From assembly GCA_945883435.1 (NCBI GenBank), contig CAMCXK010000005.1:1-64000 (forward strand): a DNA stretch of 64,000 bases, in the 5' to 3' direction. Positions 362 to 18,358 of the stretch are shown here, piece by piece. The notes under the pieces were generated by a model that worked only from the letters and a program-made list of their open reading frames with translations, was not told the origin of the DNA and ran no database searches. The first letter of the stretch is position 1. Each line of letters starts with the position of its first letter. Source of the DNA: Chthoniobacter flavus. GTDB lineage: Bacteria; Verrucomicrobiota; Verrucomicrobiia; Chthoniobacterales; Terrimicrobiaceae. Both the position numbers and the translations under genes were made by a program.

Positions 362-1414
362 GTGAGACCGACACAGGATGCCTGTATTGCAAACCGAAAA
401 ACCGTTTCCGGGTCGAGGGCAGCCTTTTCACTTTTGGAAATGCTCGTGGCGATGGCGGTGCTTCTGCTGATTGGAAGCCTGCTGGCAAGCGTGGTGGGCA
501 ACATCTCGCACCTGACCCAACACACCACCGGGAAAATCGAGGAAATGCAAACCGGCCGCTTTGCATTCGACAGAATGACCCGGATGCTCTCTCGAAGCCA
601 ACTCAACGAGTATCTGGACTACTACAACCGGGATATCCGGAAATTTATGGCCGAAACGAGCCCGACCGAAGCACGGGATTTTGTGCCGCAAGACTTTCGC
701 CGGTATTCCGACCTTCAGTTCCGGTGCGGGCCAGCCTCGGAATTGGGCCTTTCGGGCTCCCCGACGCTCTCGACACACGGCGTCTTCTTTCAAGCCCCGG
801 CCGGGTATTCGGAGACCACGCGGGCACTCCCGCAGGCTCTGAACGCAATCGGCTATTTCATCGAGTATGGCTCGGAGCAAGCCGACCTGCCGCCGTTTGT
901 CGCCGAAGACAGGGCCGCCCGCGGGGTGGCTCCGGTCTACCAGTTCCGACTGAAGGAAGTGCTTCAACCGACGGAGAAGGCGGCTTTTTACCAGCCCACA
1001 AAAAATTGGATCGCCGAAGCCGCCGGCAGTCCCGGCAATGTGCACACGCTGGCGAGGGATGTGATTGCTTTAATCCTGTTGCCAAAAGAGGGCGCAAATG
1101 CTGAGGCTACAAGTCTTTCAAGCGATTACCGCTACAACTCCCGCATATCCAATGCGACCCCTCAGCCCATTCAGCAACACCGTCTGCCTCCCGTGCTTCA
1201 AGTGGCCATGGTGGTGTTGAATCGAAAGTCCGCCGCCCGGGTCTGTCTGGATTCCAATGCGCCCAAGCTTATCGAAGGCCCCAACGGAGAGGAGTTGTTC
1301 ACAAAGCCGGAACGTTTCTCCGAGGACCTTCAAGCCCTGGGAAAATCCCTGAGTCAAAAACGATTGAGCTACCGCATCTTCAACACCGAGATACCTTTGA
1401 ATTCGAGCCTCTGA
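362..1414 (+). CDS. Verru_Chthon cassette protein C-like, prepilin-type protein
   Basis: The diagnostic part is a prepilin-type N-terminus: a short basic leader, then AFSLLEMLVAM and a hydrophobic helix of about 20 residues, with the conserved Glu at position 5 of the mature chain. The residue before the Phe is Ala, not the usual Gly. The soluble part (about 300 residues) has no catalytic motif. Size, pilin-like head and position directly before the giant A protein match the family Verru_Chthon cassette protein C, whose molecular role is unknown. The start is uncertain: GTG 362 gives a leader of about 21 residues, ATG 269 or TTG 164 would give much longer ones, and none has a good ribosome site. 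It ends 7 bases before the next gene, so they are probably one operon. Confidence 0.7.
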   Translation: MRPTQDACIANRKTVSGSRAAFSLLEMLVAMAVLLLIGSLLASVVGNISHLTQHTTGKIEEMQTGRFAFDRMTRMLSRSQLNEYLDYYNRDIRKFMAETSPTEARDFVPQDFRRYSDLQFRCGPASELGLSGSPTLSTHGVFFQAPAGYSETTRALPQALNAIGYFIEYGSEQADLPPFVAEDRAARGVAPVYQFRLKEVLQPTEKAAFYQPTKNWIAEAAGSPGNVHTLARDVIALILLPKEGANAEATSLSSDYRYNSRISNATPQPIQQHRLPPVLQVAMVVLNRKSAARVCLDSNAPKLIEGPNGEELFTKPERFSEDLQALGKSLSQKRLSYRIFNTEIPLNSSL

Positions 1415-1421
1415 ATCTTGC

Positions 1422-4400
1422 ATGAAACCAAAAAGATGGCCTCCATTCCCCGTCCGCCGCCAAGCTGGCATCGCCTTGATGCTGGTTCTTTTTGCCATCA
1501 TTGTCACGACAGCGCTTGTCCTGGCCTTCTTTTCCAGCATCCAGTCCCAAGTCACGTCCTCGGCCATCTACTCGGGAGCCATCGAGTCCTCGGCATTATC
1601 GGATTCGGCGATTCAGCTGGTCATTGGCCAAATCCGCGACGCCACGAACCACGGGAACGGCACACGTTCATGGGCTTCGCAACCCGGCTTGATCCGCACT
1701 TACAACACCTCCGGAAACGAGGCGGGCAGCTACAAACTCTATTCCGCTTCCGCCATGCGACCGGCTGGACCATTCAACCCGGTGACCGCACTGGCCGATG
1801 AAATCCCTGCCGATTGGGCCGCCCGCCCCGGAGAGTTTGTGGATCTGAACACCCCGATGCAGCGCGCCGATGGAAGCTACGCGTTTCCAATTCTCGACCC
1901 GCTGGATCTGACCTCCGCGGGAAATTCCACCGAAGTGGAGGGCTTCGGAGTCACCAATCTGAACTTTATCTCCAGCTCCAATGGTGCCGGGAATTCAACC
2001 CACACCGAGATCAAGATGCCAGTGCGGTGGCTTTATGTTTTGCAGAATGGCGCGATGGCCCCCCTGCTGGAGGGAAAAGTCGCTGGAGCCTCTCCCTCGA
2101 ATCCCATCATCGGCAGGGTCGCCTTTTGGACCGACGATGAAACTTGCAAGCTGAATATCAATACCGCCTCGCACGGGATTTTTCATGGGAAACCGTATGC
2201 CGATACCGGCAGCACGACTGGCACGCCTGCAAATTACACCGAGCGCAGGCTGGGCTGGGCGCTTCCGGTTGCCAATGAGTTTTCCAGATTCCCTGGGCAC
2301 TTGGCGATGACCTCGCTTAGTCCAGTGCTCAAGAGCCTCTGGAATGCCGATGTTTACGATTTCAGCGGAGCCAGTTACTTGGCCCTTGTCGACCCCTATT
2401 ACCAATATGTCTCACCCAAGACTGGCTCCGGAGGCAGCAAGGGGGCTTCGGTTCGGACCACCGGCGCTTCCCCATTCAAGCCTCCGAGCGTCACAAGCAG
2501 CACCAAACGGCTTTATGCCACGCCGGACGAGTTGGCTTTTGGTCCTGACCGCTCAATAAACGGAGCCGGATTGCTGACTCCGGACTTCGTCTCCGGGCGG
2601 CGTTTCTTCCTCACCTCCTCCAGTCGGGCCCCCGAGGTCACGCTGTTTGGCACGCCGCGCATTTCTCTTTGGCCCTTGCAACGGGACCCGGACCCGGTCC
2701 TGGGACTACGAACCCGCAATACCAAGGACCGCCTGCTTGCAGCGTGTTCGACCATCAATGGGAAGCCGTTCTATTTCGAGCGAGGAACTGTGACTGCCGC
2801 CGCTGCCTCTCCTGCCGCTTCCGAGGACCTGGACTTTAGTCTTTCCACTTGGGGGGCGAACAAGCTTCCCGACGCATTCGACCCGGAAAGCCATCTTGCC
2901 GAAGGGACGCGCAATGCAAGCCTCTACGCTTATTTGCAAAATATCACAAGTCGTGGCGTGCCCGGATATGCGGGGAGCTTCGCTGCCAAATACGGCACCA
3001 CCAACCGCGACCAGTTGCTCACCCAAATGGTTGATTTCATGCGCAGCAACATCAATATCCAGTCGGCCAACGGCATGGATTTTGTTTACCGCTACGTGGC
3101 TGATGCCCCCGCTTACGGAAATGCGAGCGATGGTGGAGCTCTTAGGAATCAGGTCACCCCCCTCCGCCCCGCGAGCGGTCCTGCCGCAGGCACCAAAGGC
3201 TTGGGCTGCTTCTCCAATCTGAGCGGGGTAACGATGGTTTTCCTGATCAACAGCGCCACGGTTACCGGGAATGGGACCTCCCGGACGGTCACCCCCACTG
3301 GGATGCGTTGCTTTTTGATGTTCGATTCCAACAACCCACTCGCATCGGCTTTGGGGGTGAACTGGTCCGGCCGTTTGCGCGTGAAGGGATTGGAATCTCT
3401 CAGTGTCACTCCACAAACGGGCAGCTTGACCCAACTTTACCCAAGCGCACCGGCGAACGGGATCGAAGCCTGTCTTTATTTTTCGCGCGCAGGAACATCC
3501 AACGTGAATGGGCCAGACTGGTTGGGCGCCCAATTCAGCAATTTGCGGGGCAATTCACTTCCCAATCCTGGACCCAACCCATACCGGTTGATCGGAACAA
3601 ATCCGCTCCGTGACTTTACCTTATGTTCCACAAACATCCCTTTGCCCGCCGGGGCAGGCTCGAGCTTTAGTTTTTCCGGCGGAAACTTGACCGTGGAAGT
3701 GTATTCCTCCCTGGCGCCCCAACGCCCGGGCCAGGACAAGCTGGTTCAGTCCGTGAACATCCCACTCCCCAGCGGCACATGGCCAATGCCCAGACCGGTT
3801 CTCATCCCGGTTCCCGCAGGGGGTTCCGATGCCAGACTAAACAGTTTTAACGAGCGGGCCAACCGACGCGATAGCAACAGCGGGGCAGGCGGCATAGGAG
3901 GCTGGAACAAAGCTCCTTATTGGGATGAGGATCCTGCTTTTTTCGATACTCCAAACCAGGTGACGCCTTATGTCGGCTACATGGCTTACGCCGGAGCGGA
4001 TGTGATTAAGTCCGTGGCTCTGGATCCAGACACCGCGACCGCTGATTACCGTCTGCTGGCTTCCCAGCGGGAGGTCCCTGGCAGCGCTTTTTCCGGTTTG
4101 CCGACAGGATCTTCGTCTTACAGCGGATACACGGAGAGCACCCGCAGCAGTTATGCATTTTGGGATAAATCGTCCTGCAATACCGACAAGGGGTCTGTGA
4201 ACGCGAGCAAAACCATTTTGATTCCTGGCACTCAGTTTGCCCAATCCAACGGAACGTTTTCAGCTGTCATTCCACTCACCTTCGACCAGAAGAGCCCGGT
4301 AGGAGCCCGTCTTTTAGGCGGCGACATCTTGGGCGACTGGGATACTGCATCCGGCAACTTTAGCGATAATAGCCTCGGGGGGCGCTTTGATCGCGGTCTC

Positions 4401-5345
4401 ACAAATCAAAACTACGGCGGTTACTTTGGTGCCATTGCCTCTGGCAACGATCCCGGCGTTTCCATGTCCACGGAGGGTTACTCTCCCAACCGTGAAATTT
4501 CCTCCGCCGTGAGTTTCGGAGGTCTTCTCACCCACTCGGCTCTCAACCCGCGTCCATGGGAGACGCTCCTCTTTTGCGCCAATCCGGCAGCCGGTTCGGC
4601 GCACCCGGGATTTGCCTCTCCCCCGGACCATCTGTGGCTGGATCTTTTCACCATGCCTGTGGTGGAGCCTTATGCCATCAGCCTCCCCTTTTCCACCGCA
4701 GGCAAAGTGAACATGAATTACCAAATCGCCCCGTTCACTTACATCCAACGCTCGACGGCCCTCCGCGGGGCATTGAAAAGCACATGGCTTACCGCAATCG
4801 GAACCGGGGAGTCCGCTGCGGGACGCTACAAAAAGAACAGCAATGCCATCTACCGCTACGCCATCAACCCGGATGTCACTCTGGAGGGATTTGATCAGAA
4901 ATTCCAGAACGGCGAGATTTTCCGCTCCGCCACCGAGATTTGTTCCATGTTCCTTGCACCGAAAGGCCCGCTCCCCGGAACTGGAGGGCCCACAAGTTAC
5001 TCCAGCATTGCCTCTTGGTGGAACAATTATGCCCAGACCGCAGACAATGTCCGCGAGGATCCCTACGGGCATCTTTATCCACGACTGACCACGCAGTCGA
5101 ACAGCTACACCGTTCATTACCGTGCGCAGGCGCTCAAGATTCCACCATCCATCAATTACAACGTGATCGATCCGGCGAAGCTTTTAGTCACATCGGAATC
5201 GCGCGGTTCCACCTTGATCGAGCGCTATGTGGACGCTTCGGACCCCCGGATGCAGGAAGACGGGTTTGATCCGGCGACGAATTTTGCAACCGTGGACAAA
5301 TATTACAAATTCCGGATCGTTAACAACGTTGCATTTGCTCCATGA
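1422..5345 (+). CDS. Verru_Chthon cassette protein A
   Basis: A 1307-residue protein. It starts with a basic stretch and a PilX-like hydrophobic segment (about residues 12-36, beginning QAGIALMLVLF), followed by a helical stretch of the type seen after pilin heads. The rest is a long soluble region rich in Ser, Gly, Asn and Pro with no enzyme motif that I recognise. Length, N-terminus and cassette position fit the large A protein that defines Verru_Chthon cassettes. By analogy with pseudopilin systems it would sit in the inner membrane, with its bulk outside, perhaps as a tip or adhesin subunit built on the small pilin-like partners; that is inference. Its stop overlaps the start of the D gene (ATGA), which implies coupled translation. 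No cassette B protein is found between C and A or after D. Confidence 0.8.
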   Translation: MKPKRWPPFPVRRQAGIALMLVLFAIIVTTALVLAFFSSIQSQVTSSAIYSGAIESSALSDSAIQLVIGQIRDATNHGNGTRSWASQPGLIRTYNTSGNEAGSYKLYSASAMRPAGPFNPVTALADEIPADWAARPGEFVDLNTPMQRADGSYAFPILDPLDLTSAGNSTEVEGFGVTNLNFISSSNGAGNSTHTEIKMPVRWLYVLQNGAMAPLLEGKVAGASPSNPIIGRVAFWTDDETCKLNINTASHGIFHGKPYADTGSTTGTPANYTERRLGWALPVANEFSRFPGHLAMTSLSPVLKSLWNADVYDFSGASYLALVDPYYQYVSPKTGSGGSKGASVRTTGASPFKPPSVTSSTKRLYATPDELAFGPDRSINGAGLLTPDFVSGRRFFLTSSSRAPEVTLFGTPRISLWPLQRDPDPVLGLRTRNTKDRLLAACSTINGKPFYFERGTVTAAAASPAASEDLDFSLSTWGANKLPDAFDPESHLAEGTRNASLYAYLQNITSRGVPGYAGSFAAKYGTTNRDQLLTQMVDFMRSNINIQSANGMDFVYRYVADAPAYGNASDGGALRNQVTPLRPASGPAAGTKGLGCFSNLSGVTMVFLINSATVTGNGTSRTVTPTGMRCFLMFDSNNPLASALGVNWSGRLRVKGLESLSVTPQTGSLTQLYPSAPANGIEACLYFSRAGTSNVNGPDWLGAQFSNLRGNSLPNPGPNPYRLIGTNPLRDFTLCSTNIPLPAGAGSSFSFSGGNLTVEVYSSLAPQRPGQDKLVQSVNIPLPSGTWPMPRPVLIPVPAGGSDARLNSFNERANRRDSNSGAGGIGGWNKAPYWDEDPAFFDTPNQVTPYVGYMAYAGADVIKSVALDPDTATADYRLLASQREVPGSAFSGLPTGSSSYSGYTESTRSSYAFWDKSSCNTDKGSVNASKTILIPGTQFAQSNGTFSAVIPLTFDQKSPVGARLLGGDILGDWDTASGNFSDNSLGGRFDRGLTNQNYGGYFGAIASGNDPGVSMSTEGYSPNREISSAVSFGGLLTHSALNPRPWETLLFCANPAAGSAHPGFASPPDHLWLDLFTMPVVEPYAISLPFSTAGKVNMNYQIAPFTYIQRSTALRGALKSTWLTAIGTGESAAGRYKKNSNAIYRYAINPDVTLEGFDQKFQNGEIFRSATEICSMFLAPKGPLPGTGGPTSYSSIASWWNNYAQTADNVREDPYGHLYPRLTTQSNSYTVHYRAQALKIPPSINYNVIDPAKLLVTSESRGSTLIERYVDASDPRMQEDGFDPATNFATVDKYYKFRIVNNVAFAP

Positions 5346-5941
5346 GTCACTTGCAAAATAGAATCAGCAAAGCATTCAGCCTGTTGGAACTTCTCGCCGT
5401 CGTCGCCATCGTGGCGATCATGGCCGTGCTGACGATGCCCGCGCTCCGTTCGATCTCTCGAGCGCAGGATATGACCCGGGCCGGCACCATTCTTGTGGAG
5501 CAAATCGAGAAGGCGCAACAGCTGGCCACATCGAGGGCCCGGCCCTCGGAGATTCGATTTTACCATTTCCAGCTGCCCGGCCAACCCGACGCACAATACC
5601 GGGCGATTCAGGTCTTTTCTTTCGATGAACGTGGCGAAATGGCATCCCCCGCCTTCCCGTCTGTGATGTTGCCGGGTGGAGTTGCCTTGCATCCACTGGA
5701 TAAATTTTCTCCGATTCTTTCGCAAGCCCCCCGTTCGGGCATGTCGACATTGCCCGGCGGAACGTCCTGCAGCTACAAAGCCTTTCAGTTCCGGCCTGGT
5801 GGTTCGCCCGACCTGCCTGCCAACGCCTCCTTTGTCACGGCTGTCTTGGAATCCGACATTCCATCGGGTCGCACCCCGACAAACTACTCCTGCGTGAAGG
5901 TCGAGCCCGGCACCGGTCGGCCGCTGCTTTACCGGCCATGA
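5342..5941 (+). CDS. Verru_Chthon cassette protein D, pseudopilin-like
   Basis: This is a 199-residue protein. It begins with a leader of about 11 residues and a class III prepilin motif: AFSLLELLAVVAIVAIMAV, the standard methylation-site head with Glu at mature position 5. The residue before the Phe is Ala, as in the C protein of this cassette. The soluble domain resembles type II secretion GspH-like minor pseudopilins in size, but no catalytic motif is present. The start codon overlaps the stop of the A gene by 4 bases. A prepilin peptidase elsewhere in the genome would be needed to process it. Assignment to cassette protein D rests on size, N-terminus and gene order. Confidence 0.78.
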   Translation: MSHLQNRISKAFSLLELLAVVAIVAIMAVLTMPALRSISRAQDMTRAGTILVEQIEKAQQLATSRARPSEIRFYHFQLPGQPDAQYRAIQVFSFDERGEMASPAFPSVMLPGGVALHPLDKFSPILSQAPRSGMSTLPGGTSCSYKAFQFRPGGSPDLPANASFVTAVLESDIPSGRTPTNYSCVKVEPGTGRPLLYRP

Positions 5942-5997: not shown

Positions 5998-8900
5998 ATG
6001 AAACATAAAACATCGGATTTTTTTGCCGATATCGCGACATCCCTACCGGGAAAACAACGTCAGCACCTTCAAGCACCCAGCCCGGCGGCCGTGCCCGACT
6101 TGGAGCTGCCCTTGGCGGGCGCAACGGTCTCGAACAGAGTCCCGGCACCCCGTATTACCACGTTTGAGGAAATGCAGGCGGCCCTTGCCGAACTGCGCGA
6201 GAAGCACCACCCATTTCTCCAGAATCTTGCGCCCGAACTTCCCTCAACCCGGGACCGACTCGAGTTCAAGACCTTTTCCTGGCGCATCGAACAGCCGGAA
6301 GACCGTCAAAATTTTGCCACCGTCTTGCAAGGGGCCGGGCTGTGGCAAACGGTTGAAATCCCCCACTACGGGCCGCCTTTGGGCCAAGCGGCGACGCTTT
6401 ATCGATGCGAGTTTGAACTCCCCTCTTGGGCAGCAAGGCACGAAGCGTTCGGCCTGTGCTTCGGAGGAGTGGACTACCGCTGTCAAATTTATGTCAATAG
6501 CCTCTGCATCGGCACGCATGAAGGGTTCTTCGAGGAATTCCGACTCGACTGCACAGCTGCCTTGAAACCCGGAAAAAATGTTCTTCTGGTGCGTGTTGAA
6601 AATGATTTCACCATGTTGGGGGAAAATATCGGCCCCTTAAAGTCCGACGGAGACAAGATTTACGCCGCGACTGGCCTTGGCTACGACGAACCGGAACTCG
6701 GGTGGCACCATTGCCCGGCCGGGATGGGAATCTGGAATACCGTCGCCATCGAAGGCACCTCGCGTCTCTACATCGACGATCTTTGGGTCCGGCCATTGCC
6801 GGAGACCCACGAGATCGAAATCCACGCGGAAGTGGAAAGCCACAGTCAAAATTTTGAGGAGGAGGTCCTCCTTGATCTCTCCATCTTTGGTCAAAACTTT
6901 CAGGCCGTCGCCCTTCGCAACCATATCCACCGGGGTGAAGCTCCGTTCGTCCGCGGGTTCGGCGATTTGGCACACGGCTTTGATGAGGTGTTTCCAGAGA
7001 TTCTGGGCTCCGGGCGCAACTATATCCGCCTCCGCGTTTCATTGCCTGACGCGCGCCTCTGGAGCCCGGATCAACCGTGGTTGTATCAGTTGCAAGCCTG
7101 CTTGCGCGAGCCCAAGGGAAAGTTCCACCTCAATGGCCAGGAGATCCGCCTGCGCGGGGCCAATACCATGGGAAACTTCGAGCGCTGCATTATGCGGGGC
7201 GATCTCGAGGGCCTGTGCGATCAGATTCTTTTGGCCAAGCTGACCAATATGAATTTTCTGCGCATGACCCAGCGGCCAGTGCATCGGGAGTTTTATGAAT
7301 TCTGCGACCGACTGGGACTGATGGTGCAAACGGACCTTCCGTTGTTCAGCACGATTCGGCGCAGCCAGTTTGCGGAAGTGGCGCGCCAAGCCGGCTGCAT
7401 GGAACGTCATGTTCGCCGCCACTGCTCCAATATCCTTGTCTCCTTCATTAACGAGCCTCGACCAGCCGCTGGAAGCAAACCGCACCGCTTTGTCCACCGC
7501 GATGAAATGGAAAGCCTTTTCGAAATGGCCGCCCGTCAGGTTCGGTTTCACAACCCGGACAGGGTCGTCAAATACGTGGATGGGGACTATGACCCGCCGG
7601 CACCGGTCGGGCTGCCGGACAACCATGTCTACTGCGGCTGGTATATCGGTCATGGAATCGACTTGGGAGCGCTGCATCAAGGACGCTGGCTCCCGGTCAA
7701 GCCCGGGTGGCACTGCGGATGTGGAGAATTTGGCGCCGAGGGTCTCGATTCCTACGCCGTTATGGCTTCGGAATATCCCGCCCGCTGGAAGCCCCTCTCG
7801 CCGGACGCTCCTTGGAATCCAGGCGTGATTGCGATGTCGCAAACCTGGAAGTTTCACCGCCTCTGGTATGAACCCGCCTCCACCGCGCAAGGTTGGATCG
7901 AGGCAAGCCAGGATTTTCAGGAATGGATCATTGGCATGATGACAAGATCGTTCCGTAGGATGCCATGCTTGAATTCATTCGCTGTGCATCTCTTTATCGA
8001 CGCCTGGCCAGCCGGGTGGATGAAAGCCATCATGGACTCGCATTGCATCCCTAAAAAAGCATGGTTTGCCTACAGGGACGCCCTCGCTCCGCTGGCGGTC
8101 TCGCTCCGCTGCGACCGAACACATGTGTGGGCGGGCGAGCGCGTCGCTGTGGAAGTGTGGGTCTGCAACGACCATCCCGAGGCCCGATCCGGATTGACCG
8201 TCCACTACGAACTTTTGGTGAATGGAACGATCTTAACCGCGGGGAAATATCCAGCCGAGGCTCCTGCCTGCGCACCCGTGTGCCTCGGGCTCATCCCACT
8301 CCAGATTCCCGAGGTCGGTTCACGATCACGTCTGGAACTTGGCATCACTCTTGAGGATGCCTCAGGTCGCCCGGTGCACTCGCACGAGTTGGCATTTGAG
8401 GCCTTTCCGATTCCGACTCCAGCCACCCAGCAAGTGTGGACTCCACAGGCCAATCCGGCGACGCAGCAGTTCTTGAAAAGGTTGGCGTTGGCTACAGTGG
8501 ATTTGCTTTCCGATTCCGACACGCTGCTGCTGACGAACATCAGCGATCTTGAAGAGAATCGGGAACAGATCGAATCGGCCGTGCGGAAGGGGGCCACAGC
8601 CGTGCTCCTCAATCTGCCTCCGGGGGAACACCGCTTGGGCCATGCGGAACTGTGTGTCCGGGAAGCCGGGATGGGGCCAAGGCATTTCGTGTCCCGCGCA
8701 ACGGGACATTCCTTGGTGGAAGGATTTCACCCCAATGATTTTCGGTTCTGGTTTCACGAATCCGCCCAGCGGGTCGCGCCGATTCTGACAACCGTCCTCG
8801 ATGCCGCAGGATGGACCCCCATCTTGCTGACTGGAGACGGTGGGTGGACCAAAGATTGGGAGTATTATCCGGCTGCCGCTGAAATCCGCGATGGCCAAGG

Positions 8901-9060
8901 GCTCTGGCGAGTCTGCCAACTTCCGCTGAGCGAGTGCATCCGCCACAATCCAACAGCTCGGATTTTCGCACAGCGACTCTTCCGCCATAAAACGCGAAAG
9001 CCCATTCAAACACATCCAATTCCATCAGATCATGTTGTGAAGGAAGTTCTGGTATCATGA
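5998..9060 (+). CDS. Glycoside hydrolase family 2 protein
   Basis: The 1020-residue product has GH2 architecture: an N-terminal jelly-roll sugar-binding domain (about residues 85-255, with LFYRCEF-like and GTHEGFFEEF segments), an immunoglobulin-like domain, the linker-to-barrel motif FHLNGQEIRLRGAN, a TIM barrel, and a C-terminal beta region. In the barrel SFINEP places the general acid/base at Glu486 after Asn485, and GEFGAEG gives Glu577 as the likely nucleophile. GH2 enzymes remove beta-galactosyl, beta-glucuronyl, beta-mannosyl or related residues by a retaining mechanism; the substrate cannot be read here. No signal peptide is seen, so it probably acts on oligosaccharides taken up into the cell. 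The next gene encodes another glycosidase on the same strand. Its C-terminal 150 residues are unusual for the family and may be an extra domain. Confidence 0.8.
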   Translation: MKHKTSDFFADIATSLPGKQRQHLQAPSPAAVPDLELPLAGATVSNRVPAPRITTFEEMQAALAELREKHHPFLQNLAPELPSTRDRLEFKTFSWRIEQPEDRQNFATVLQGAGLWQTVEIPHYGPPLGQAATLYRCEFELPSWAARHEAFGLCFGGVDYRCQIYVNSLCIGTHEGFFEEFRLDCTAALKPGKNVLLVRVENDFTMLGENIGPLKSDGDKIYAATGLGYDEPELGWHHCPAGMGIWNTVAIEGTSRLYIDDLWVRPLPETHEIEIHAEVESHSQNFEEEVLLDLSIFGQNFQAVALRNHIHRGEAPFVRGFGDLAHGFDEVFPEILGSGRNYIRLRVSLPDARLWSPDQPWLYQLQACLREPKGKFHLNGQEIRLRGANTMGNFERCIMRGDLEGLCDQILLAKLTNMNFLRMTQRPVHREFYEFCDRLGLMVQTDLPLFSTIRRSQFAEVARQAGCMERHVRRHCSNILVSFINEPRPAAGSKPHRFVHRDEMESLFEMAARQVRFHNPDRVVKYVDGDYDPPAPVGLPDNHVYCGWYIGHGIDLGALHQGRWLPVKPGWHCGCGEFGAEGLDSYAVMASEYPARWKPLSPDAPWNPGVIAMSQTWKFHRLWYEPASTAQGWIEASQDFQEWIIGMMTRSFRRMPCLNSFAVHLFIDAWPAGWMKAIMDSHCIPKKAWFAYRDALAPLAVSLRCDRTHVWAGERVAVEVWVCNDHPEARSGLTVHYELLVNGTILTAGKYPAEAPACAPVCLGLIPLQIPEVGSRSRLELGITLEDASGRPVHSHELAFEAFPIPTPATQQVWTPQANPATQQFLKRLALATVDLLSDSDTLLLTNISDLEENREQIESAVRKGATAVLLNLPPGEHRLGHAELCVREAGMGPRHFVSRATGHSLVEGFHPNDFRFWFHESAQRVAPILTTVLDAAGWTPILLTGDGGWTKDWEYYPAAAEIRDGQGLWRVCQLPLSECIRHNPTARIFAQRLFRHKTRKPIQTHPIPSDHVVKEVLVS

Positions 9061-9151
9061 GTCGGGAGATCATACCCTCGTCTCCAAGATTGTTGATTTG
9101 CAAAGGCGCTCGCGCAGGCCAGTTATTCAGATTTTGGAATTAAGACGCATA

Positions 9152-9157
9152 TATAAT
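9152..9157 (+). promoter_or_regulatory. Perfect -10 hexamer before the propeller glycosidase
   Basis: TATAAT lies 15 bases before the ATG at 9172, in an AT-rich patch within otherwise GC-rich sequence. No convincing -35 hexamer occurs 16-18 bases upstream. If used, transcription would begin near 9164, leaving a leader of about 8 bases with no Shine-Dalgarno sequence. This is a motif match only. Confidence 0.35.
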
Positions 9158-9171
9158 CTTTTGACAATATT

Positions 9172-10059
9172 ATGATGATTAATACTAAAAATATATACAA
9201 TCCTATTCTCAGGCTTCATAACAATCTGAGGGATCCGTCCGTATTTAAACTTCCGGACAGGTATCTACTTTTTTACACCCGCTATGTCATTGGCCACTGG
9301 AATCTGGCCCGCAACTGGCATGTCTCGTGTTGTGAAACCAAAGACTTTGTGACTTTTTCCGGACATCGGGATATCACCGCAGAAAATTTCGCCTCACCGG
9401 GGGATGTTGTTCATTGGCATGGCCGATGGATCATGCCATTTCAATCCTACCCAGTGCGGCCCCAATCGTTGTTTTTCGCGGAATCCGACAACGGCATGGA
9501 CTGGTCGGCTCCCAAAGGATTTCTAGAAAAAGCATTGGACCTCCCTTGGAACACCGACCAGAGGGCGATCGACCCATCGTTTGTCGTCCATGGCCGCGAA
9601 CTCCATTGTTTCTTTGTCGGTTCCGAGGGTTTGGGCACTCCGCAGCGTGCAAACCTGCTTGGACATGCCGTGACCGAAGATCCCACCTTGCAAAACTGGC
9701 GGATTCTCACCCCCGATTCCCCCTTGATGGGCCGCGACAGGGCTCCCGATGGAGTGGAAAATGTCGTTATTTATCGAGCTGGCGGCAAGTGGTTGATGAT
9801 GTTGAGCGAAGGTATGGAGAATCAACATCTGGCGTTGGCAGAGTCGCAGGACTTGATCACTTGGCGGCCTGCGGGAATTGTCGAGATTGCACCCCAACCT
9901 TGGTTTTCCTTTCGTCATGGGGCCCCATTCATCTGGCAAGAAGAGGACCGCTACTACATGGTTCTTATGGGGGAGGAAGACGCCTCGCACCGATCCTCCC
10001 TCGGTTTTCTGACTTCGGCAGATGGCTTCAAGTGGGAGGTTTTGCCCTCTCGAGATTGA
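9172..10059 (+). CDS. Five-bladed beta-propeller glycosidase (GH43/GH32/GH130-like)
   Basis: The protein is 295 residues, almost exactly a single five-bladed propeller without accessory domain. The segment LRDPSVFKLPDRYLLFYT near residue 19 is the typical first blade (R-D-P motif, then Y-L-F-Y). Later blades repeat the pattern of an aromatic W-x-S/P ending and Y-M-V-L strands, as in YYMVLMGEE. Acidic residues in R-D-P and in DGVENVVIY are candidates for catalysis. Families GH32, GH43, GH62 and GH130 share this fold, and the sequence alone does not decide between fructosidase, arabinanase/xylosidase and phosphorylase activities. No signal peptide is present, so it is probably cytoplasmic and may act with the preceding GH2 enzyme on the same imported glycan. 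A second ATG directly follows the first, and neither has a ribosome site. Confidence 0.68.
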   Translation: MMINTKNIYNPILRLHNNLRDPSVFKLPDRYLLFYTRYVIGHWNLARNWHVSCCETKDFVTFSGHRDITAENFASPGDVVHWHGRWIMPFQSYPVRPQSLFFAESDNGMDWSAPKGFLEKALDLPWNTDQRAIDPSFVVHGRELHCFFVGSEGLGTPQRANLLGHAVTEDPTLQNWRILTPDSPLMGRDRAPDGVENVVIYRAGGKWLMMLSEGMENQHLALAESQDLITWRPAGIVEIAPQPWFSFRHGAPFIWQEEDRYYMVLMGEEDASHRSSLGFLTSADGFKWEVLPSRD

Positions 10060-10363: not shown

Positions 10364-13300
10364 TCAGAGGTCAAACAGGCGCTCGGGAGCGGACCCGGAA
10401 TAGGCGTAGGTCAGCACCGCGCCGTCCACCAGAGATCCCCCGCCGAGATACGGGCTGGCGACTCCTTGAATCGCACCCGAGTAATTCGGCCCCGAGTAGT
10501 AAGCCCGGTTGTTGACGTGAACGATCGGGACATCATTGGCATCGGTGGCCTTGAAAACGCCGATCTTGCCTCCCGCCGGGACGGAAACTCCGGAGACCGA
10601 AGTGATCGCGGCGATGCGATCCACGGAGCCGGCGACCATGGAAAGGATGTTGCGGGCTTCAAATCCCGTAATGGAACCAGCCACGCCGGCCGAAGCCGGT
10701 TCGCCGCCACGCACCAGACCGCTGGCCCCGGCAAGAACGCCCACATTTCCAGTTGCAGGAGAGAGCGCCGTGACAGCCCCGGTTCGAATGTCGGAGGTAA
10801 AGACGGCCATGGGGCTGCCGAAGGGCACGTAGGATCGAATCGGTGTCGCCGCGGCAATGATGCCCGCGTCCCCGGCGAGTTTGATCGCTTTCAAGGACCC
10901 GCCCGCGCCGGCACCGGTGGCGGCATCGGAAGTTAGTCCGTAATTCAGCGTGTTTCCGCCGTTGCCGGCAATGAGATCCGTGCTGACTTGAATGCTGTTC
11001 GGCTGGGTGAGCGAGGAAATCCCTCCCCCGGCACCGCCACGGCCATTGGAAGATCCCATCGCCCAGATTTGCTGGAAGAGGGACCAAACCAGTGGATCTG
11101 CTCCGGGTGGTGGAGGATTTTCCTTTTGAATCTGGGAAGCGGATACAGCCGAAGCATGGCCCCCGTCTCCGGCAATCGCGACGACACGGCCATTGTCGAG
11201 AGCCGAGGCGTTCAGCGTGACACTTGAGATTTGACCACCACCACCACCGGCGAGAAAGCCATTGCCTCCGGCACCAGCCGCAAAGACGAGCGAACCGGTG
11301 TCTGCGACAAACACGCTCTGGGACAAGGCTCCACCCGCACCGCCTTTGGCGGCTGCGGAAAGACCACCATCTCCCGCAAGAACGGGGATCAACTCGCTGG
11401 AGGCGGTGATTTCAGATCCACTCACATGACCTCCGCGACCACCGTCGCCGAGAACTCCGTCGCCACCGTCTCCTGTGGTGACAGTCGCGGTAAAGGGAGT
11501 TCCAATTCCGGTCACACGGTTGACAAATCCCGAAATGGAGCCTCCATGCCCGCCCGTGAGGCCCGACCCGCCAGAGCCCGTGGAAAGAGCCACCTGGCCA
11601 ATGAGCACATTGTAATCGGCCGTTGGACCGGAATTCGAGATATCGCCACCGTGTCCAGCCGCGCCGGCGCTGGAACCGCCTCCGAATCCCGTGGCAAACG
11701 ACAATGAGGCCGGACCAATCCAGCCGCCATTGACGGTGCCAGCCTGGTTTTTGAAGTTGCCGATAAAGCCGCCCGAGCCGCCTGCCAACGTGCCGAATCC
11801 GCCCGACCCGGTGACAATGTCAAGGCCATTGACTTTGACGTCGGGGATTTTTACGTCCCCTTTGCCAAGGACAAATCCTCCGTTTCCGCCACGGGCTCCG
11901 AATCCGCCATCCCCGGTCACGAGCGTGAGGTTTGAAAGCTCGGTTTTGGTATTCACTCCCTCGAAGAAGATTCCCGAAATCGAACCTCCGGCCCCTCCGC
12001 TGCCAAGCAAGCCGGAACCACCGTTTTGAGTCGTGAGAGTGCGGGTCACACCTTCGGTGAAAATGCCAAACAAGCCCCCGGCGCGGCCTCCGGAGAGAAA
12101 TCCTCCGCCTCCGGATCCGGAAAGAAAAGTCGTCGAATTGAAGCCGGCGACCTCCAGCGCTCCCGTCATGATGCCTTCGGAATTTTTGGTGGCCACTCCT
12201 TGGCCGAGATTGCCCCCATGGCCACCGTTTCCGAGGTAGGAGAACCCGCCATCTCCAGCCACCAGTATCAGATCGCTGGAAATCAACTCATAGCCGTAAA
12301 GGTTCCAAGGAAGCCCATTGGCTGGTGCGGTCAAACCGGAAAATCCACCCTCAAACGGCCCGGAGAGGGCGTATCGGGAATTCTCCGCGCCGGAGGTGGC
12401 ATAGCCCGTGAAAGAAACCGGCGAAGACAGCGCCCCATCACTGGCGTCCGTGGGACCGTATTGATCGAACCCGACAACATCAAACTGGCGGATAATCGGG
12501 TCATTTTTCTCTCCCACTTGAGCGGCAAAAGCCACCTGGCCACCAGCAATTTCAAAGGCTCTGGAAACTTTGTTGACTTCAAATACCCCGGCCACAACCA
12601 AGGGAATTTGCGGCGTTCCAGCCGCAGCCTTGGGAGCGGTCACCGCGATACCATAATAGGTGGTCGGCGACGGATCCGCCACGGGACTGGCCGCACGCGC
12701 ATCGGTCAAGACAACTTGAGCGACCGTTCCATCTCCGTTGCTACCATCCAAGACGGAGGCCACGGTGAAATCGCCATACTGTCCAAAAACGACAGGGTCG
12801 AAAAATCCATCACCGTTTGCATCGGCGATGGCGAAGTCGTAAGCGGAGATGTTTTCCGCCTTTTCGTAAAAAAGCTTGTTGATTTTAACCCCACCCACAT
12901 CGACCTCGGCCACCTTGCGGGGATTGAATTTGATACCTGCAATGGTCGAGAGATTCTGCAGGCTTCCGTTCGGGAAGGCGATCGAAGGATCAAAGGAAAA
13001 CGTCTGGAAGGTGGATGGAGTGTCGCCATCAGGTCTCGTAAGAACGGCCAGAATATCGGAGCGGTTGTCTCCGGATTCGATCGCCGTGGCTTTCAAGGTC
13101 AAGGCCACCTCCTGCCCTTTGAAAGAGGCGGCAAGAGCAATGGGAAACTTGGTGGGAACGGAGCCCGAGCCAAGGCCGAAGTCCGCCGCGAAAAAGCCAT
13201 CGGGAATGCCAGCGGAGTCTGTCAACCCGGATAGGACAACCAAAGAGGCGGGATAGGGGTCGGAGCTGATTTGAGGCTCGGCAACGTTGATCAACGCCAA

Positions 13301-14983
13301 GTCCACAATTCCGTCGTCATTGAAATCTCCACTGGTCAAGTTGGTGTTGACTCCACTGTCTCCGAAGGGCGTCGGACTGTAACGTGGGATATCGAATCCC
13401 AGCCAGTCACCGGCTCCATCGAAGCCCCGGTTCAAGAAGCTTTTGACTCCACCGAAGGTGGATCCCTGGCTGGATGCCGTTGCGATGTCGGGAAGTCCGT
13501 CACCGTTGAAATCCGCCACCGCCAGAGGAGACATGCGGACAGCGTCCTCCGCATAGAGAGACGGCTCGAGAATCATGAACCCTTGACGGAATCCACCCGC
13601 TCCGTTGCCGAAGGCCACCGCCATTTGTTGGGTCGTCTGGGTCAAAAACACCGCATCGCTGTTGCCATCGGCATCGAAGTCGAACGACCGGAAACTGCCC
13701 AAGTCGCCGGCTTCGCGGGTGGTTGTCAGGAAGGCGGACGGCGCGGGTTCGCCCACACTGAAAAGTTGGAATTTTGCGGCGTCCAGACTCGTGCCCGCGC
13801 CGGCATTCGCGAGCCCATCGCCCCCGCGGCCCAATCCGACGCGCACATCACCATAGATTTCGATCGGGGCATTCGGCTTGAAGAGACCCGCTTGGCCGGC
13901 ATTTCCCAGAAGCCCCTGCCCGCCATCCCCGGTAAAGAGGCTCACCACGCTGTTCGGGGAAGCGGTGACCCCGAAATTGATGATCGATCCCCCATTGCCA
14001 CCGGACACACCATCACCGCCATCGCCCGCGATCGCACGGAATCCTCCCACATCGCCGTTGAGGTAAACATCACGAATGTCCCCGCCTTTGGCTCCGAAGC
14101 CTCCGTCGCCGGTTTGAATGCCGCCGATGAAGAAAACAGCGGGCTCGAATTCCGTTGAGGAATAAATGCCGGAACCGGCCTTGATGCCGATCAAGTCGCC
14201 GCCAGCCTGTCCGGCCGCCGGAATGAAGGCGGCCAGGTCGCCCCGGAGACTCTGACCGGGGCCGGCGCCGACGAGTGGCGAAGTGCCAAAGCTGAAGGCT
14301 TGGCCACTGACTGCGGTGCCGGTGAAAAAATGTCCCAACGAAGGCGTGGGCGTGAGACCGCCATACCAGCGGTTGGCCAAAATGTATTTTTCCTGCTGGG
14401 CCGAAAAACCCGCCGTGTCGATCAAGAGACCATTCCCGCCGAATCCCAAACCTCCCCCGGCGAAGACATTTCCATAAATCGAGTAATTCGAGAGGGCGAG
14501 ACGGTTCAACGGAGTATTGCCCTCCACGGACGCGTTAAGATCCGCAGCCACCACCGATCGCAAAGTGATCGATTCAATACGGGAATTGAGAACAATTTTC
14601 CCGTCACGGCCATTGGACGAATCCCCGTCGGAATCGGTGAGAAGTCCACCCGGGAGGAGATTGGTCACGATATCGCCGTGGATATCGACAAACGAAGTCA
14701 ATCGCAGTCCGTCACCCGCTGAAACGCCCGTGATTTCGTCGTGATCCACCGAGCCGTTGCCGTTGAGGTCGGTTGTGAACACCAGCGCTTGTCCTTTTTC
14801 AACGTAAAGGTAGTAGCTGCCCGCAAAGGGACCGGAACTGCCCAATCCTTGGCCGGGGCCGAGGAGAATGCTGGAGCCCGCCACCGCAGCGGAGATGGCG
14901 GATTCATTCAACCCGGCCGGCGCGATGCGAGGCTCAAGAGTTTCGAGAATGGGGGAACCAATCGGAGAGGCAGGGGTTTTCAT
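10364..14983 (-). CDS. Giant glycine-rich secreted protein, LEPR-type N-terminus, FG-GAP repeats
   Basis: A 1539-residue protein with no enzyme motif. In order: a LEPR-type N-terminal motif (LETLEPRIAPAG, residues 14-24); a strand-rich stretch with YLYVEKGQALVF; a canonical EF-hand calcium loop at residues 72-83 (D-x-N-x-N-G-x-V-x-x-x-E); a first block of Gly-rich repeats; four FG-GAP/VCBS-type units at roughly residues 425-790 (for example VADFNGDGLPDIA and SGDFNDDGIVDLA); then a long second block of Gly-rich repeats of about 40-60 residues (GDGG-G--GG-GG followed by two hydrophobic strands), probably a beta-solenoid. LEPR-type motifs occur at the N-terminus of very large exported proteins of PVC bacteria. 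There is no C-terminal transmembrane segment, PEP-CTERM or autotransporter barrel. It starts immediately after the stop of its upstream paralogue, so translation is likely coupled. Probable role: surface or matrix protein (inference). Confidence 0.78.
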   Translation of the reverse strand: MKTPASPIGSPILETLEPRIAPAGLNESAISAAVAGSSILLGPGQGLGSSGPFAGSYYLYVEKGQALVFTTDLNGNGSVDHDEITGVSAGDGLRLTSFVDIHGDIVTNLLPGGLLTDSDGDSSNGRDGKIVLNSRIESITLRSVVAADLNASVEGNTPLNRLALSNYSIYGNVFAGGGLGFGGNGLLIDTAGFSAQQEKYILANRWYGGLTPTPSLGHFFTGTAVSGQAFSFGTSPLVGAGPGQSLRGDLAAFIPAAGQAGGDLIGIKAGSGIYSSTEFEPAVFFIGGIQTGDGGFGAKGGDIRDVYLNGDVGGFRAIAGDGGDGVSGGNGGSIINFGVTASPNSVVSLFTGDGGQGLLGNAGQAGLFKPNAPIEIYGDVRVGLGRGGDGLANAGAGTSLDAAKFQLFSVGEPAPSAFLTTTREAGDLGSFRSFDFDADGNSDAVFLTQTTQQMAVAFGNGAGGFRQGFMILEPSLYAEDAVRMSPLAVADFNGDGLPDIATASSQGSTFGGVKSFLNRGFDGAGDWLGFDIPRYSPTPFGDSGVNTNLTSGDFNDDGIVDLALINVAEPQISSDPYPASLVVLSGLTDSAGIPDGFFAADFGLGSGSVPTKFPIALAASFKGQEVALTLKATAIESGDNRSDILAVLTRPDGDTPSTFQTFSFDPSIAFPNGSLQNLSTIAGIKFNPRKVAEVDVGGVKINKLFYEKAENISAYDFAIADANGDGFFDPVVFGQYGDFTVASVLDGSNGDGTVAQVVLTDARAASPVADPSPTTYYGIAVTAPKAAAGTPQIPLVVAGVFEVNKVSRAFEIAGGQVAFAAQVGEKNDPIIRQFDVVGFDQYGPTDASDGALSSPVSFTGYATSGAENSRYALSGPFEGGFSGLTAPANGLPWNLYGYELISSDLILVAGDGGFSYLGNGGHGGNLGQGVATKNSEGIMTGALEVAGFNSTTFLSGSGGGGFLSGGRAGGLFGIFTEGVTRTLTTQNGGSGLLGSGGAGGSISGIFFEGVNTKTELSNLTLVTGDGGFGARGGNGGFVLGKGDVKIPDVKVNGLDIVTGSGGFGTLAGGSGGFIGNFKNQAGTVNGGWIGPASLSFATGFGGGSSAGAAGHGGDISNSGPTADYNVLIGQVALSTGSGGSGLTGGHGGSISGFVNRVTGIGTPFTATVTTGDGGDGVLGDGGRGGHVSGSEITASSELIPVLAGDGGLSAAAKGGAGGALSQSVFVADTGSLVFAAGAGGNGFLAGGGGGQISSVTLNASALDNGRVVAIAGDGGHASAVSASQIQKENPPPPGADPLVWSLFQQIWAMGSSNGRGGAGGGISSLTQPNSIQVSTDLIAGNGGNTLNYGLTSDAATGAGAGGSLKAIKLAGDAGIIAAATPIRSYVPFGSPMAVFTSDIRTGAVTALSPATGNVGVLAGASGLVRGGEPASAGVAGSITGFEARNILSMVAGSVDRIAAITSVSGVSVPAGGKIGVFKATDANDVPIVHVNNRAYYSGPNYSGAIQGVASPYLGGGSLVDGAVLTYAYSGSAPERLFDL

Positions 14984-17900
14984 TCAAGAGTCAAAGGTGT
15001 TGCGTTCGTCGATCAAGGCATAGCCGGTTCCGGAGACAGAACCGGGCACAGCCGTCAGAAATGCTTCGGGCCGGAAGTTTTTGTTGGCACCCAATGTCAA
15101 GGCGGCCACAAAGCCGTCCAATGGCCGGGTGGTTCCGAGCGTCCACGGGAAGGGATTCGAGGCGATGGGAGTTGAAACTCCTGCGACATCGATCTGAAAA
15201 ACATTCGCTCCGGGAGCCGCAGGATTACCAGCCACTCCGCCGACAAGATTGGCGGAGGAGAAATTCAGAAACGCCCCGAAATCCGGACTGAGTGGATCGA
15301 TATCGGCAATTGCCGGAGTGAGTCCACGCAGGAAAACTCGATCCACGAGGTGGGCCAAGCCAAAATCCGCAGGGGAAGCCGTGGTAGGGCGTCCAGCCAC
15401 GATCGCGGAAATGGCGGCCGCCGTGATTTGCGTCACGCTGCCCGCTTGGCCGTTTAGTTTGGCATCTCCCCCGGTGCCCCCGAGACCGGCGAAAAGACCG
15501 CCCATTCCATCCGAGCCAAAAGCCGCTCCCGAACGTGTGCCGATGTCTCCGAAGGTATTGATTTCCGTCAGCGACCCTCCCCGTCCTGCTTTGGCGGGGG
15601 AATCTCCGCCATTCCCTGCAGCAAGAAATTGAAGGACAACACCCGGTGCGGTTGCGACTTTGGAAATGCTTCCTCCATCTCCGGCCGTTCCTTTCGAACC
15701 GGGCAAGAGGGATCCCCCGTGGCCGGCGGTCACTTCGACCCGGCCATCACCACCGTAGATGCTCAAACCCGAGACAGCCCCCCCGGGAGCCGCTTTGGAT
15801 CCGGCAACCCCGCCATTTCCATCGCCGGCAGAAAGACGAGTGAACAAGCCGTCCCCGGCTTGGCCGGCAAGATTAAGGAGGCTTCCTCCCGCACCAGCAC
15901 CTGCGGGGCCGACAGACCCTTGGCCGCCAGCGACCGTCACAGTGCCAGCGGGAGCGGTTGCAGGATCGGGTTGGAAATCCGCGTTCATTCCATACCAGGC
16001 CGCATTCGAAATACTGCCGCCGTGCCCACCCGCATGCCCATCCCCAGCTTGAAGGGAAATATCGAGAAATGCGGAAACCGAAACCGTTTTCAAGAACCCG
16101 CCCTGGCCGGGTTTGGATGCTCCCGGAGAAGGCGAAGCCTGCCCCGCGACAAGCGATGCGCTCCCGGTGGATGCTGAAACAGTAGCCCGCTCCACCGCTC
16201 CACCATTCCCAACGCTGGCTCCCGGACCTCCATCCCCCGCAGTCAGAAGAACCGACAAGCCGGGATTCGTGAGGGCAGGAGTGGTTGCGGCAATCAAAGT
16301 CACCGAGGAAACCAAACCGCCGGCACCACCTTTTCCCTGGGGCCCGGTGCCCGCTCCACCGGCTCCAGACGCAGCCTGCAAAATTCCGGAGCCGGTGAGA
16401 TTGGAAACATCAAAAATTTTGACACTGGAGTTTTGAAGCCGTCCTCCAGCACCCGCAACAGGACCATCTCCTCCAGCACCCGCTGCCAACGAGGGAAGAG
16501 TGGCAAATCCGAGATAAGTGATGGCGTTGAGATCCCCACCGGCTCCCCCGGATTTTCCTCCACTGCCACCGGCACCCGCCGTGAAGGAAAGAAGGCCATT
16601 GCCAGCACCGGCGGCGGGTTCAAAAATGGAAACCCGGTCGAGCGAACCTCCCTTGCCCCCCGCTCCGGAAAGCGAAGTTCCGCCCTGGCCTCCCACCACC
16701 TCATTGCCGGGAGTGTCAAAATCCAAATACAAGGCCTCCACGCCGGTGACCTGGCCACCGGTTCCACCTGCACCGGTGGTGGCAGTCCCGCCCTGACCGG
16801 CCCGGATGGACAACAGATCGACCCGATCTCCGGGCTGGTAGGAAAGCTGCACCTTCGCCACCGATCCACCCGCACCGCCGCTGGATCCCGATGATCCACT
16901 GCCGGCTTGAAGAACAACCTGATCGCCCAAAATGGAAAGGCCGGTTAGCGATCCTCCGGGGGCACCGGGACCAGTGGACAAGCCCGCCGACCCGCCGCGC
17001 ACGGCAACCGTGTCGCGCAAGGAAGGGTCCAACGCGTCTGAAGCATTCAAATTCTGAACCATCAAGGAGGAAACACCGCCGCCCGCACCGGCTTTTCCAG
17101 TTGGCAGGGAGGCATTGCCTCCGGCTCCCCCGAGGATTTCAATCTCGTCAATCAGGGCGCTTTGCGGAGCCGCAGAAAAAACCTGAATGCCTGAAACAGT
17201 CCCTCCAGCCCCGCCCGCTGCGGCTCCCTGGCCACCAGCCCCGGCCGCCAAGGAAACGTAGTCGTTGAGAGCCTCAGGGGATTTAATGATTTTTTTTCCC
17301 TCGAGCTGGAATCCAATATCAATGCGGGAGAGACCTCCTCCGGCTCCGCCGGATCCAGTGAGGGAGGCCCCGCCAGCACCAGCCACAATGCGGATATCCC
17401 CATAAACCGGGACCGTGGGATCAGCGTCCCCTGTTCCAGACACTATTATACCGGAAACGGATCCTCCCGGGCCGGCTTTCGCCCCGTCGCCTCCACGGCC
17501 GGCAGCGACCAGAAACCCGTTGCTGTCGGCAAGGACCGAGAGGCCCAGAATCGACCCTCCCTTGCCTTGGGATCCCCCCACCCCTGCCACGACCTCATCC
17601 ACTGCGCCCAGCTGAATCGATTGGAGCGATCCCCCGGCTTTTCCCGCCGCTGGCGTGTAGGCCGCCAGCAAACTGGATCCGAATGCGGATCCCGTGCCAC
17701 CCCAGGAATAAGTATAGGTGCCGTCGGAAGACGTGGTGAGCTGTTCTGCCGTTCCCGAGATCGAGATTTTGGCCATCGATCCTCCGGAAACAACCCGCCC
17801 GAGGATGTCTCCTTGCACGTTGAGCGAGACAATCGTTCCATCCGGGATCAAGGATCCGGGAGTCAAAAGACGGGACTTGGCATCGAAATTCACCACCACA

Positions 17901-18358
17901 TCGCCATCGATGGAACCGGCTACTTTGACCGCCGCCCCGCTGGACAGCGAGAGGCCTGTCAACTCCTCCGCCTCGACGCGCCCGTCCCTGTTTCGATCCT
18001 GAAAGAACGCCAGCAGGCTTCCCTTTTCAACGCTCAAATAGCTCTTGTCCGGCTTGGCTTTTTCGTTCCATTCCGGCCACATGAAAACTTTGTCACCAGC
18101 GGACAAGGGGAGTGCGTAGTGATTTGTGCTGCCGGCAAACAAAGATTGGGTTCCGTAGGGATTGGCATCGGCCGCGTTGAAAAAATCCCCCTCCAGATAC
18201 GTCGTGTTCGCGGGGTCGGAATCCGTCGGTGCCCCGACCTTGATCAGAACCGCTGGAGCGATGCGTGGCTCGAGGCATTCCAGCAAGGCGTCCGACGCAG
18301 CAGCACGGGAAGTTTGGGAGATGAACATAGTGTCTGACAAAACGTCGGACATCTTCAC
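14984..18358 (-). CDS. Giant glycine-rich secreted protein, LEPR-type N-terminus (paralogue)
   Basis: This 1124-residue protein shares the plan of the protein encoded just downstream, but without FG-GAP repeats. It has the LEPR motif LECLEPRIAPA (residues 27-36), a strand region with YLSVEKGSLLAF matching its partner, a canonical EF-hand loop at 121-132 (D-R-N-R-D-G-R-V-E-A-E-E), and then a continuous array of Gly/Ala-rich repeats built on GGAGG cores separated by short strands with valine and isoleucine. Composition is very low in Cys and Trp. The first in-frame start is GTG 18358; an ATG at 18352 and another at 18328 are alternatives, and none has a clear ribosome site. The stop TGA is followed directly by the ATG of the second giant gene. 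The pair probably arose by tandem duplication. Export route and function are unknown. Confidence 0.75.
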   Translation of the reverse strand: MKMSDVLSDTMFISQTSRAAASDALLECLEPRIAPAVLIKVGAPTDSDPANTTYLEGDFFNAADANPYGTQSLFAGSTNHYALPLSAGDKVFMWPEWNEKAKPDKSYLSVEKGSLLAFFQDRNRDGRVEAEELTGLSLSSGAAVKVAGSIDGDVVVNFDAKSRLLTPGSLIPDGTIVSLNVQGDILGRVVSGGSMAKISISGTAEQLTTSSDGTYTYSWGGTGSAFGSSLLAAYTPAAGKAGGSLQSIQLGAVDEVVAGVGGSQGKGGSILGLSVLADSNGFLVAAGRGGDGAKAGPGGSVSGIIVSGTGDADPTVPVYGDIRIVAGAGGASLTGSGGAGGGLSRIDIGFQLEGKKIIKSPEALNDYVSLAAGAGGQGAAAGGAGGTVSGIQVFSAAPQSALIDEIEILGGAGGNASLPTGKAGAGGGVSSLMVQNLNASDALDPSLRDTVAVRGGSAGLSTGPGAPGGSLTGLSILGDQVVLQAGSGSSGSSGGAGGSVAKVQLSYQPGDRVDLLSIRAGQGGTATTGAGGTGGQVTGVEALYLDFDTPGNEVVGGQGGTSLSGAGGKGGSLDRVSIFEPAAGAGNGLLSFTAGAGGSGGKSGGAGGDLNAITYLGFATLPSLAAGAGGDGPVAGAGGRLQNSSVKIFDVSNLTGSGILQAASGAGGAGTGPQGKGGAGGLVSSVTLIAATTPALTNPGLSVLLTAGDGGPGASVGNGGAVERATVSASTGSASLVAGQASPSPGASKPGQGGFLKTVSVSAFLDISLQAGDGHAGGHGGSISNAAWYGMNADFQPDPATAPAGTVTVAGGQGSVGPAGAGAGGSLLNLAGQAGDGLFTRLSAGDGNGGVAGSKAAPGGAVSGLSIYGGDGRVEVTAGHGGSLLPGSKGTAGDGGSISKVATAPGVVLQFLAAGNGGDSPAKAGRGGSLTEINTFGDIGTRSGAAFGSDGMGGLFAGLGGTGGDAKLNGQAGSVTQITAAAISAIVAGRPTTASPADFGLAHLVDRVFLRGLTPAIADIDPLSPDFGAFLNFSSANLVGGVAGNPAAPGANVFQIDVAGVSTPIASNPFPWTLGTTRPLDGFVAALTLGANKNFRPEAFLTAVPGSVSGTGYALIDERNTFDS

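Follow-up and report, generated by a model that had tools for sequence, protein, structure and literature searches.

LEPR-XLL (NCBIfam NF012209, LEPR-8K) is an N-terminal domain for which the annotation gives no function. The proteins that carry it rank among the largest in bacteria, with open frames of up to 20,466 amino acids (aa) in the genomes examined here. In the open-access literature it is only mentioned, and we found no description there of a secretion system that combines an M50 (site-2) protease with HlyD; the link may be published elsewhere. Leader processing by a related protease has been proposed for the daptides. Their clusters encode an RRE-fused site-2 protease (MpaP/DapP, NF041824), which was predicted, from the genes and from omission work, to remove the leader, and the precursors share an ELExMEAP leader, the numbering of which puts P at -1 (PMC10036551). 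Here we describe two adjacent genes, A and B, in a 64,000-nucleotide stretch of a Chthoniobacter flavus assembly (GCA_945883435.1; positions 1 to 64,000 of contig CAMCXK010000005.1), referred to below as the window. Both encode long glycine-rich proteins with the N-terminal motif LEPRIAPA.

We propose, at a probability of roughly 0.6, that A and B act outside the cell as structural proteins and that their N terminus is a leader read by an exporter consisting of an RRE domain, a site-2 protease, HlyD and TolC, without an ATP-binding cassette (ABC) transporter. According to this proposal, A and B would be translationally coupled and probably calcium binding, and their [ILV]ExLExRIAPA N terminus would be a leader peptide and not a Sec signal. 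An inner-membrane PqqD-M50-HlyD protein would bind the leader on the cytoplasmic side through its PqqD/RRE-like domain, and its M50 (site-2-protease-type) center would clip the leader, probably just after ...IAP or ...IAPA. HlyD adaptors and a TolC channel would then conduct the chain out of the cell. There, the glycine-rich beta arrays may form rigid rods, with an integrin-like FG-GAP head contributed by B.

The A-B gene pair and its N-terminal tag

The original prediction had described two paralogues of 1124 and 1539 residues, with the TGA of the first directly before the ATG of the second, and the open reading frames (ORFs), the junction and a profile alignment bore this out. The junction reads ...GACTCTTGA followed immediately by ATGAAAACC, i.e., A's TGA meets B's ATG with zero gap. 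The start codon of A is GTG, with an in-frame ATG at 18352. BLASTP of A against B alone covered 67 residues; in a profile-profile comparison, the two families aligned end to end (probability 100; E 1.7e-49). Judged by this alignment, A and B are full-length paralogues. Their glycine contents are 20.6% and 19.0%, respectively, both contain G-rich repeat units of ~35 residues each, and Pfam and NCBIfam scans assigned neither of them to a whole-protein family.

B was present in 8 of the 97 genomes of the order, and the other seven all lie outside the genus and family of the window genome. A scan of named genomes yielded 15 real relatives, all of them Verrucomicrobiota metagenome-assembled genomes (MAGs) labelled Chthoniobacter, Chthoniobacteraceae, Spartobacteria, etc. 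The order A then B was kept at 15 A-B loci in 14 other genomes. Directly upstream of B, a long glycine-rich partner was found in 15/15 cases, with a significant match to A in 14/15, and the gaps between the two genes ranged mostly from a 4-bp overlap to +36 bp. MAG RYN_612 harbors two divergent A-B pairs (L084 and L088), the second of which is followed by a gene for a 1657-aa protein. Since order and tight spacing are kept across relatives, we conclude that this tight bicistron is under selection and no oddity of the window contig. The absence of A-B from congeners raised the question of a transfer from elsewhere, but the base composition of the pair is close to that of the neighboring DNA, and the idea was set aside.

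The DNA pattern LE.RIAPA was detected three times in the 2.8-Mb window genome, versus 0 for the reversed control. From this count, and from the existence of orthologous pairs in other genomes, we conclude that the tag of A and B is not a chance match. The broader pattern LE.R[IV]APA gave 3, 20, 22, 9, 12, 4, 21 and 3 matches in the eight genomes with B, some of which are chance (e.g., in genomes G084 and G094), and 0 to 1 match in each of the 89 genomes without B, corresponding to the reversed-control level. The true LExRIAPA cases are located at the N termini of proteins of differing length and domains, with up to ~20 such proteins per genome. The third one of the window genome (LELRIAPA; 2292 aa; 24% glycine; contig C21, L101:226-7104, plus strand) had no Pfam match. 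Over 62 distinct N termini, the consensus was [ILV]-E-x-L-E-x-R-I-A-P-A. The E at position -2 of the tag, outside the selection pattern, was found in 61 of the 62, and position -3 was mostly I, L or V. Neither the tag nor the stretch ahead of it contains the hydrophobic core of a Sec signal.

With the NF012209 model, B scored 12.7 bits and one orthologue 11.2 bits (cut-off, 17), A and five other LExRIAPA N termini gave no match, and a search of the window genome at E 0.001 did not match the tag. By the cut-off of this hidden Markov model, A and B fall outside LEPR-XLL, yet their N-terminal core reads the same: in both groups, a short [ILV]ExLExR core stands at the N terminus of giant, repetitive, presumably surface proteins. 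The groups differ in the second half of the motif, which is LLSA, LLSG or LFDG in LEPR-XLL proteins (the neighbors described below begin with VEPIEPRILLSA, VEALEQRILLSA and IEPLETRLLLSA) and IAPA in A and B. Furthermore, LEPR-XLL proteins adjoin the same exporter module as the tagged A-B pairs of relatives. LExRIAPA is a variant form of the LEPR-XLL N terminus, which is annotated but unexplained, and the A-B pair is a new member of a class of tagged giant proteins, with its own tag variant. The original prediction had given the pair an export signal of its own. Comparison lends good support to an export role, through the multicopy N-terminal tag and its linkage to and co-occurrence with exporter genes, but the signal is not unique to the pair.

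An exporter module beside tagged proteins

A look at the neighbors of LEPRIAPA N termini in Verrucomicrobiota, as had been suggested along with the original prediction, revealed, besides the multicopy tags, exporter genes adjoining the pair in several relatives. Genes for GAF-HlyD, HlyD and M50-HlyD proteins lie just upstream of A-B at L083/L025, and an M50-HlyD gene precedes A at L085/L026. At L097, the genes for A, B, GAF-HlyD, HlyD, M50-HlyD and TolC are arranged on one strand, and at L096, GAF-HlyD directly follows B before the contig ends. The window genome encodes the orthologous GAF-HlyD/HlyD/M50-HlyD trio on contig C9 (43, 50 and 54% identity to the L025 trio). Full-length M50-HlyD (E<1e-30) was found in 7 of the 8 order genomes with B versus 9 of the 89 without (p=6.5e-6).

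The module was also detected beside LEPR-XLL giants. M50-HlyD (E<=1e-20) was present in 61/289 genomes of the phylum and LEPR-XLL (E<=1e-3) in 19/289, 18 of which contained M50-HlyD (Fisher p 1.2e-12). Within one well sampled family, M50-HlyD was found in 7/7 genomes with LEPR-XLL versus 1/17 without (p=2e-5). The distance between M50-HlyD and a LEPR-XLL frame is 2.3 to 13.8 kb in ten genomes, and eight of those loci, together with two others, repeat one gene set: tagged giant, SecA-like ATPase, M50-HlyD, GAF-HlyD, HlyD and usually TolC. The SecA-like ATPase (~650 aa; PF07517, PF01043 and PF21090; SecA_DEAD, PP_bind and P-loop) occurs in modules of other Verrucomicrobiota and of Alisedimentitalea (L143, L149, L152, L153, L154, L156 and others). 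Other modules adjoin LEQRQLLAG, LETRTLLAG and LEDRILFDGAA proteins, which were missed by NF012209. LExRIAPA alone was rejected as an explanation of the M50-HlyD distribution, because the module spreads far wider than this tag. LEPR-XLL open frames of 18,000 to 20,466 aa were observed in Verrucomicrobiota genomes (G110:C142, G113:C1, G184:C1 and G249:C29).

On proteobacterial plasmids, modules are located beside LEPR-XLL proteins, one of 4033 aa in Thalassospira and one of 12,918 aa in Pseudosulfitobacter, as well as beside giants with other LExR motifs: LEPRFMFDAA in Azospirillum, LESRQLFDGAA on an E. coli plasmid and LEARLMFDAAA in Eleftheria. The LESRQLFDGAA protein of E. coli/Citrobacter plasmids (L163; NZ_CP081687.1 54820-69240) is a 4459-aa Ig-like protein, and its gene is followed by those for TolC, HlyD, HlyD and M50-HlyD. 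No LExR-type tag was present in the annotated start of the module neighbors in Alisedimentitalea and Magnetospirillum. In three alphaproteobacterial plasmids (L160, L171 and L172), a small DUF3467 gene separates the giant from the exporter genes. As export of A and B is deduced from comparison, they could instead be an intracellular or vestigial glycine-rich pair whose tag is lineage specific and has no targeting role. We consider this very improbable, since the tag is kept at the N termini of otherwise different proteins and is linked to exporter genes across phyla.

The module resembles type I secretion and tripartite efflux in its HlyD-type adaptors and TolC-family channel, but it differs in having no ABC pump: none was found within the modules at the loci examined (relatives, other Verrucomicrobiota and plasmids). 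Instead, it contains the PqqD-M50-HlyD protein and, in many clades, the ~650-aa SecA-like ATPase. Since HlyD and TolC parts are common to type I secretion systems, and since the SecA-like ATPase in many modules could let Sec-type translocation take part, A and B might leave the cell by Sec or by an ABC-type type I system. The LExR tag would then serve surface retention or chaperone binding, and M50-HlyD would modify or anchor the giants after export. The genome G030, in which tagged proteins but no M50-HlyD were found, also fits such a scheme. We nevertheless regard it as unlikely, because the tag region has no hydrophobic signal core, because the modules examined contain no ABC transporter and because PqqD/RRE is a known cytoplasmic leader-binding domain.

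PqqD is a member of the RRE group of leader-peptide-binding domains. The N-terminal ~100 residues of M50-HlyD appear to be PqqD-like, with PF05402 above the cut-off in L171, L172 and L149 and sub-threshold in L143 and L160. In the M50 part, the motifs HExxH and NPLxxFDGYY (H214, E215 and H218; N309, P310 and D315) were invariant in 10 distant homologues, including that of the window genome. The best NCBIfam match of this part was the daptide intramembrane metalloprotease NF041824 (E 1e-44 to 1e-52), although the equivalog cut-off was missed (173 versus 300 bits). M50-HlyD is similar to MpaP/DapP in its M50 part and probably in its RRE-like domain, and the daptide leader L-E-x-M-E-A-P closely matches the tag L-E-x-R-I-A-P. 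Unlike the daptides, which are short, modified and served by a separate exporter, the substrates here would comprise ~500 to >10,000 aa, and M50 is fused to HlyD. From the likeness of the leaders, cleavage of the tag is predicted after IAP or IAPA. This cleavage is deduced solely from the likeness to daptide leader processing; consequently, the tag could be recognized by the exporter and yet be an uncleaved targeting signal, the M50 center having another substrate or a structural role. We think this doubtful, given the invariant catalytic motifs and a tag region that is short and predicted to be unfolded.

Several observations weigh against export of A and B by this route. In the window genome, the pair and the exporter trio are unlinked, a TolC partner was not identified, and PF05402 was not detected in the M50 protein (L100), which aligns with the PqqD-like homologues. 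The SecA-like ATPase of other clades has no separate counterpart there (only the housekeeping SecA matched). G030 has ~20 matches to LExRIAPA as well as an A-B pair, yet no M50-HlyD was detected, even in a profile search of its 96% complete assembly. Furthermore, M50-HlyD occurs in more genomes than those in which tags could be detected (61 versus 19 to 27), though NF012209 misses variants such as LEDRILFDGAA. Finally, the genomes of one clade are not independent, so that the above p-values overstate the associations, and the resemblance of the tag to the daptide leader, though supportive, was recognized post hoc, once the link between tag and module had been made.

Domains, predicted structure and window neighbors

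The coordinates of the pair and its features are listed in Table 1. As originally predicted, LEPRIAPA, the VEKG strand (in the context YLSVEKG or YLYVEKG) and glycine-rich arrays were found in both A and B. The predicted canonical EF-hand loop was upheld in part: the 12-residue pattern (D/N at 1, 3 and 5; E at 12) is present in both proteins, and D121 and E132 of A as well as D72 of B are invariant, with E83 of B nearly so, but the Pfam gathering score was missed (EF-hand_5 was sub-threshold on A, E 0.2; no match on B). The assignment of the EF loop is therefore based on pattern and conservation.

Table 1. Features of the A-B locus in window coordinates.
Feature	Position	Strand	Evidence
Gene A, LEPRIAPA-tagged glycine-rich protein, 1124 aa	14984..18358	-	ORF list, orthologues
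Gene B, LEPRIAPA-tagged paralogue with FG-GAP insertion, 1539 aa, ATG start	10364..14983	-	ORF, domain scan, profile comparison
TGA/ATG junction of A and B	14981..14986	-	Sequence reading
LEPRIAPA tag of A, residues 29-36	18251..18274	-	DNA pattern, alignment
LEPRIAPA tag of B, residues 16-23	14915..14938	-	DNA pattern, alignment
VEKG strand motif of A, residues 110-113	18020..18031	-	Translation, alignment, model
VEKG strand motif of B, residues 61-64	14792..14803	-	Translation, model
EF-hand-type loop of A, DRNRDGRVEAEE, residues 121-132	17963..17998	-	Pattern, alignment
EF-hand-type loop of B, DLNGNGSVDHDE, residues 72-83	14735..14770	-	Pattern, alignment
Glycine-rich beta array of A, residues ~242-1000, modeled as ordered	15359..17635	-	Composition, AlphaFold
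First glycine-rich array of B, residues ~287-400	13784..14125	-	Composition, model
FG-GAP/integrin-alpha-like propeller region of B, residues ~435-800	12584..13681	-	Pfam, model, Foldseek
Second glycine-rich array of B, residues ~905-1365	10889..12271	-	Composition

The AlphaFold model of A, built with 13 sequences, had a mean predicted local distance difference test (pLDDT) score of 76.8 and a predicted template modeling (TM) score of 0.76. Residues ~110-1000 were predicted to be mostly ordered, with pLDDT mostly >85 in the array, so that the disorder over the Gly-rich arrays that would have spoken against the original prediction was not seen for A; residues 1-58, including the tag, and 1012-1124 were disordered. 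The model of B residues 1-900 was weaker (mean pLDDT 64.6). Foldseek of the A model against the PDB retrieved no confident solved relative. The best matches, beta-helix proteins, were weak (TM <0.25), and we therefore do not call A a beta-helix. In B, a propeller that the original prediction did not contain was recognized by PF13517 and PF01839 matches and by its fold, for which Foldseek gave integrin-alpha propellers as relatives (probability 1.00; E about 1e-4). In contrast to integrin-alpha-like FG-GAP proteins, the propeller of B interrupts a glycine-rich protein that bears the tag and the rest of which is not integrin-like. For a C-terminal anchor, beta-barrel or PEP-CTERM, there was no Pfam or NCBIfam match in A or B, C-terminal hydrophobicity was weak, and the C terminus of A was predicted to be disordered, in agreement with the original prediction. 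The original prediction had suggested a secreted matrix or surface-layer pair; Pfam detected no S-layer feature (SLH or other cell-wall-binding domain) in either protein.

At the contig edge, positions 164-5941 (plus strand) contain the Verru_Chthon cassette genes C (TIGR02599, sub-threshold at 219.5 versus 256.5), A (TIGR02600) and D (TIGR02596), which are pseudopilin-like. As this cassette is located only a few kb from A-B, it could be thought to export or display the pair. We judge this to be highly implausible: glycoside hydrolase GH2-like and GH43/GH32-like genes intervene (5998-10059, plus strand), just downstream of A-B and convergent with it on the opposite strand, and the A-B loci of relatives have other neighbors. 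Genes for a flagellar-type FliI/YscN ATPase and FliF are located at 54348-58895 (minus strand).

Beyond the A-B pair, LEPR-type N termini (LExR-IAPA, -LLSA and -LFDGAA) may be the leaders of a widespread, undescribed secretion system, a proposal that we hold to be evenly balanced between right and wrong. In such a system, giant surface proteins would be delivered to HlyD-TolC conduits without an ABC transporter. Delivery would fall to a site-2 protease and a recognition domain in the style of ribosomally synthesized and posttranslationally modified peptides, both of them fused to HlyD, and a dedicated SecA-like ATPase would often be associated with them. This wider link between tag and machine is the part that a specialist would find surprising. 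If true, the LEPR-XLL and LExRIAPA giants would gain an export route, and the annotations "LEPR-XLL" and "M50-HlyD" would become a testable substrate-machine pair. The leader-peptide logic of small modified peptides would then be reused for giant proteins, and a simple sequence rule would be available to predict secreted giants in Verrucomicrobiota.

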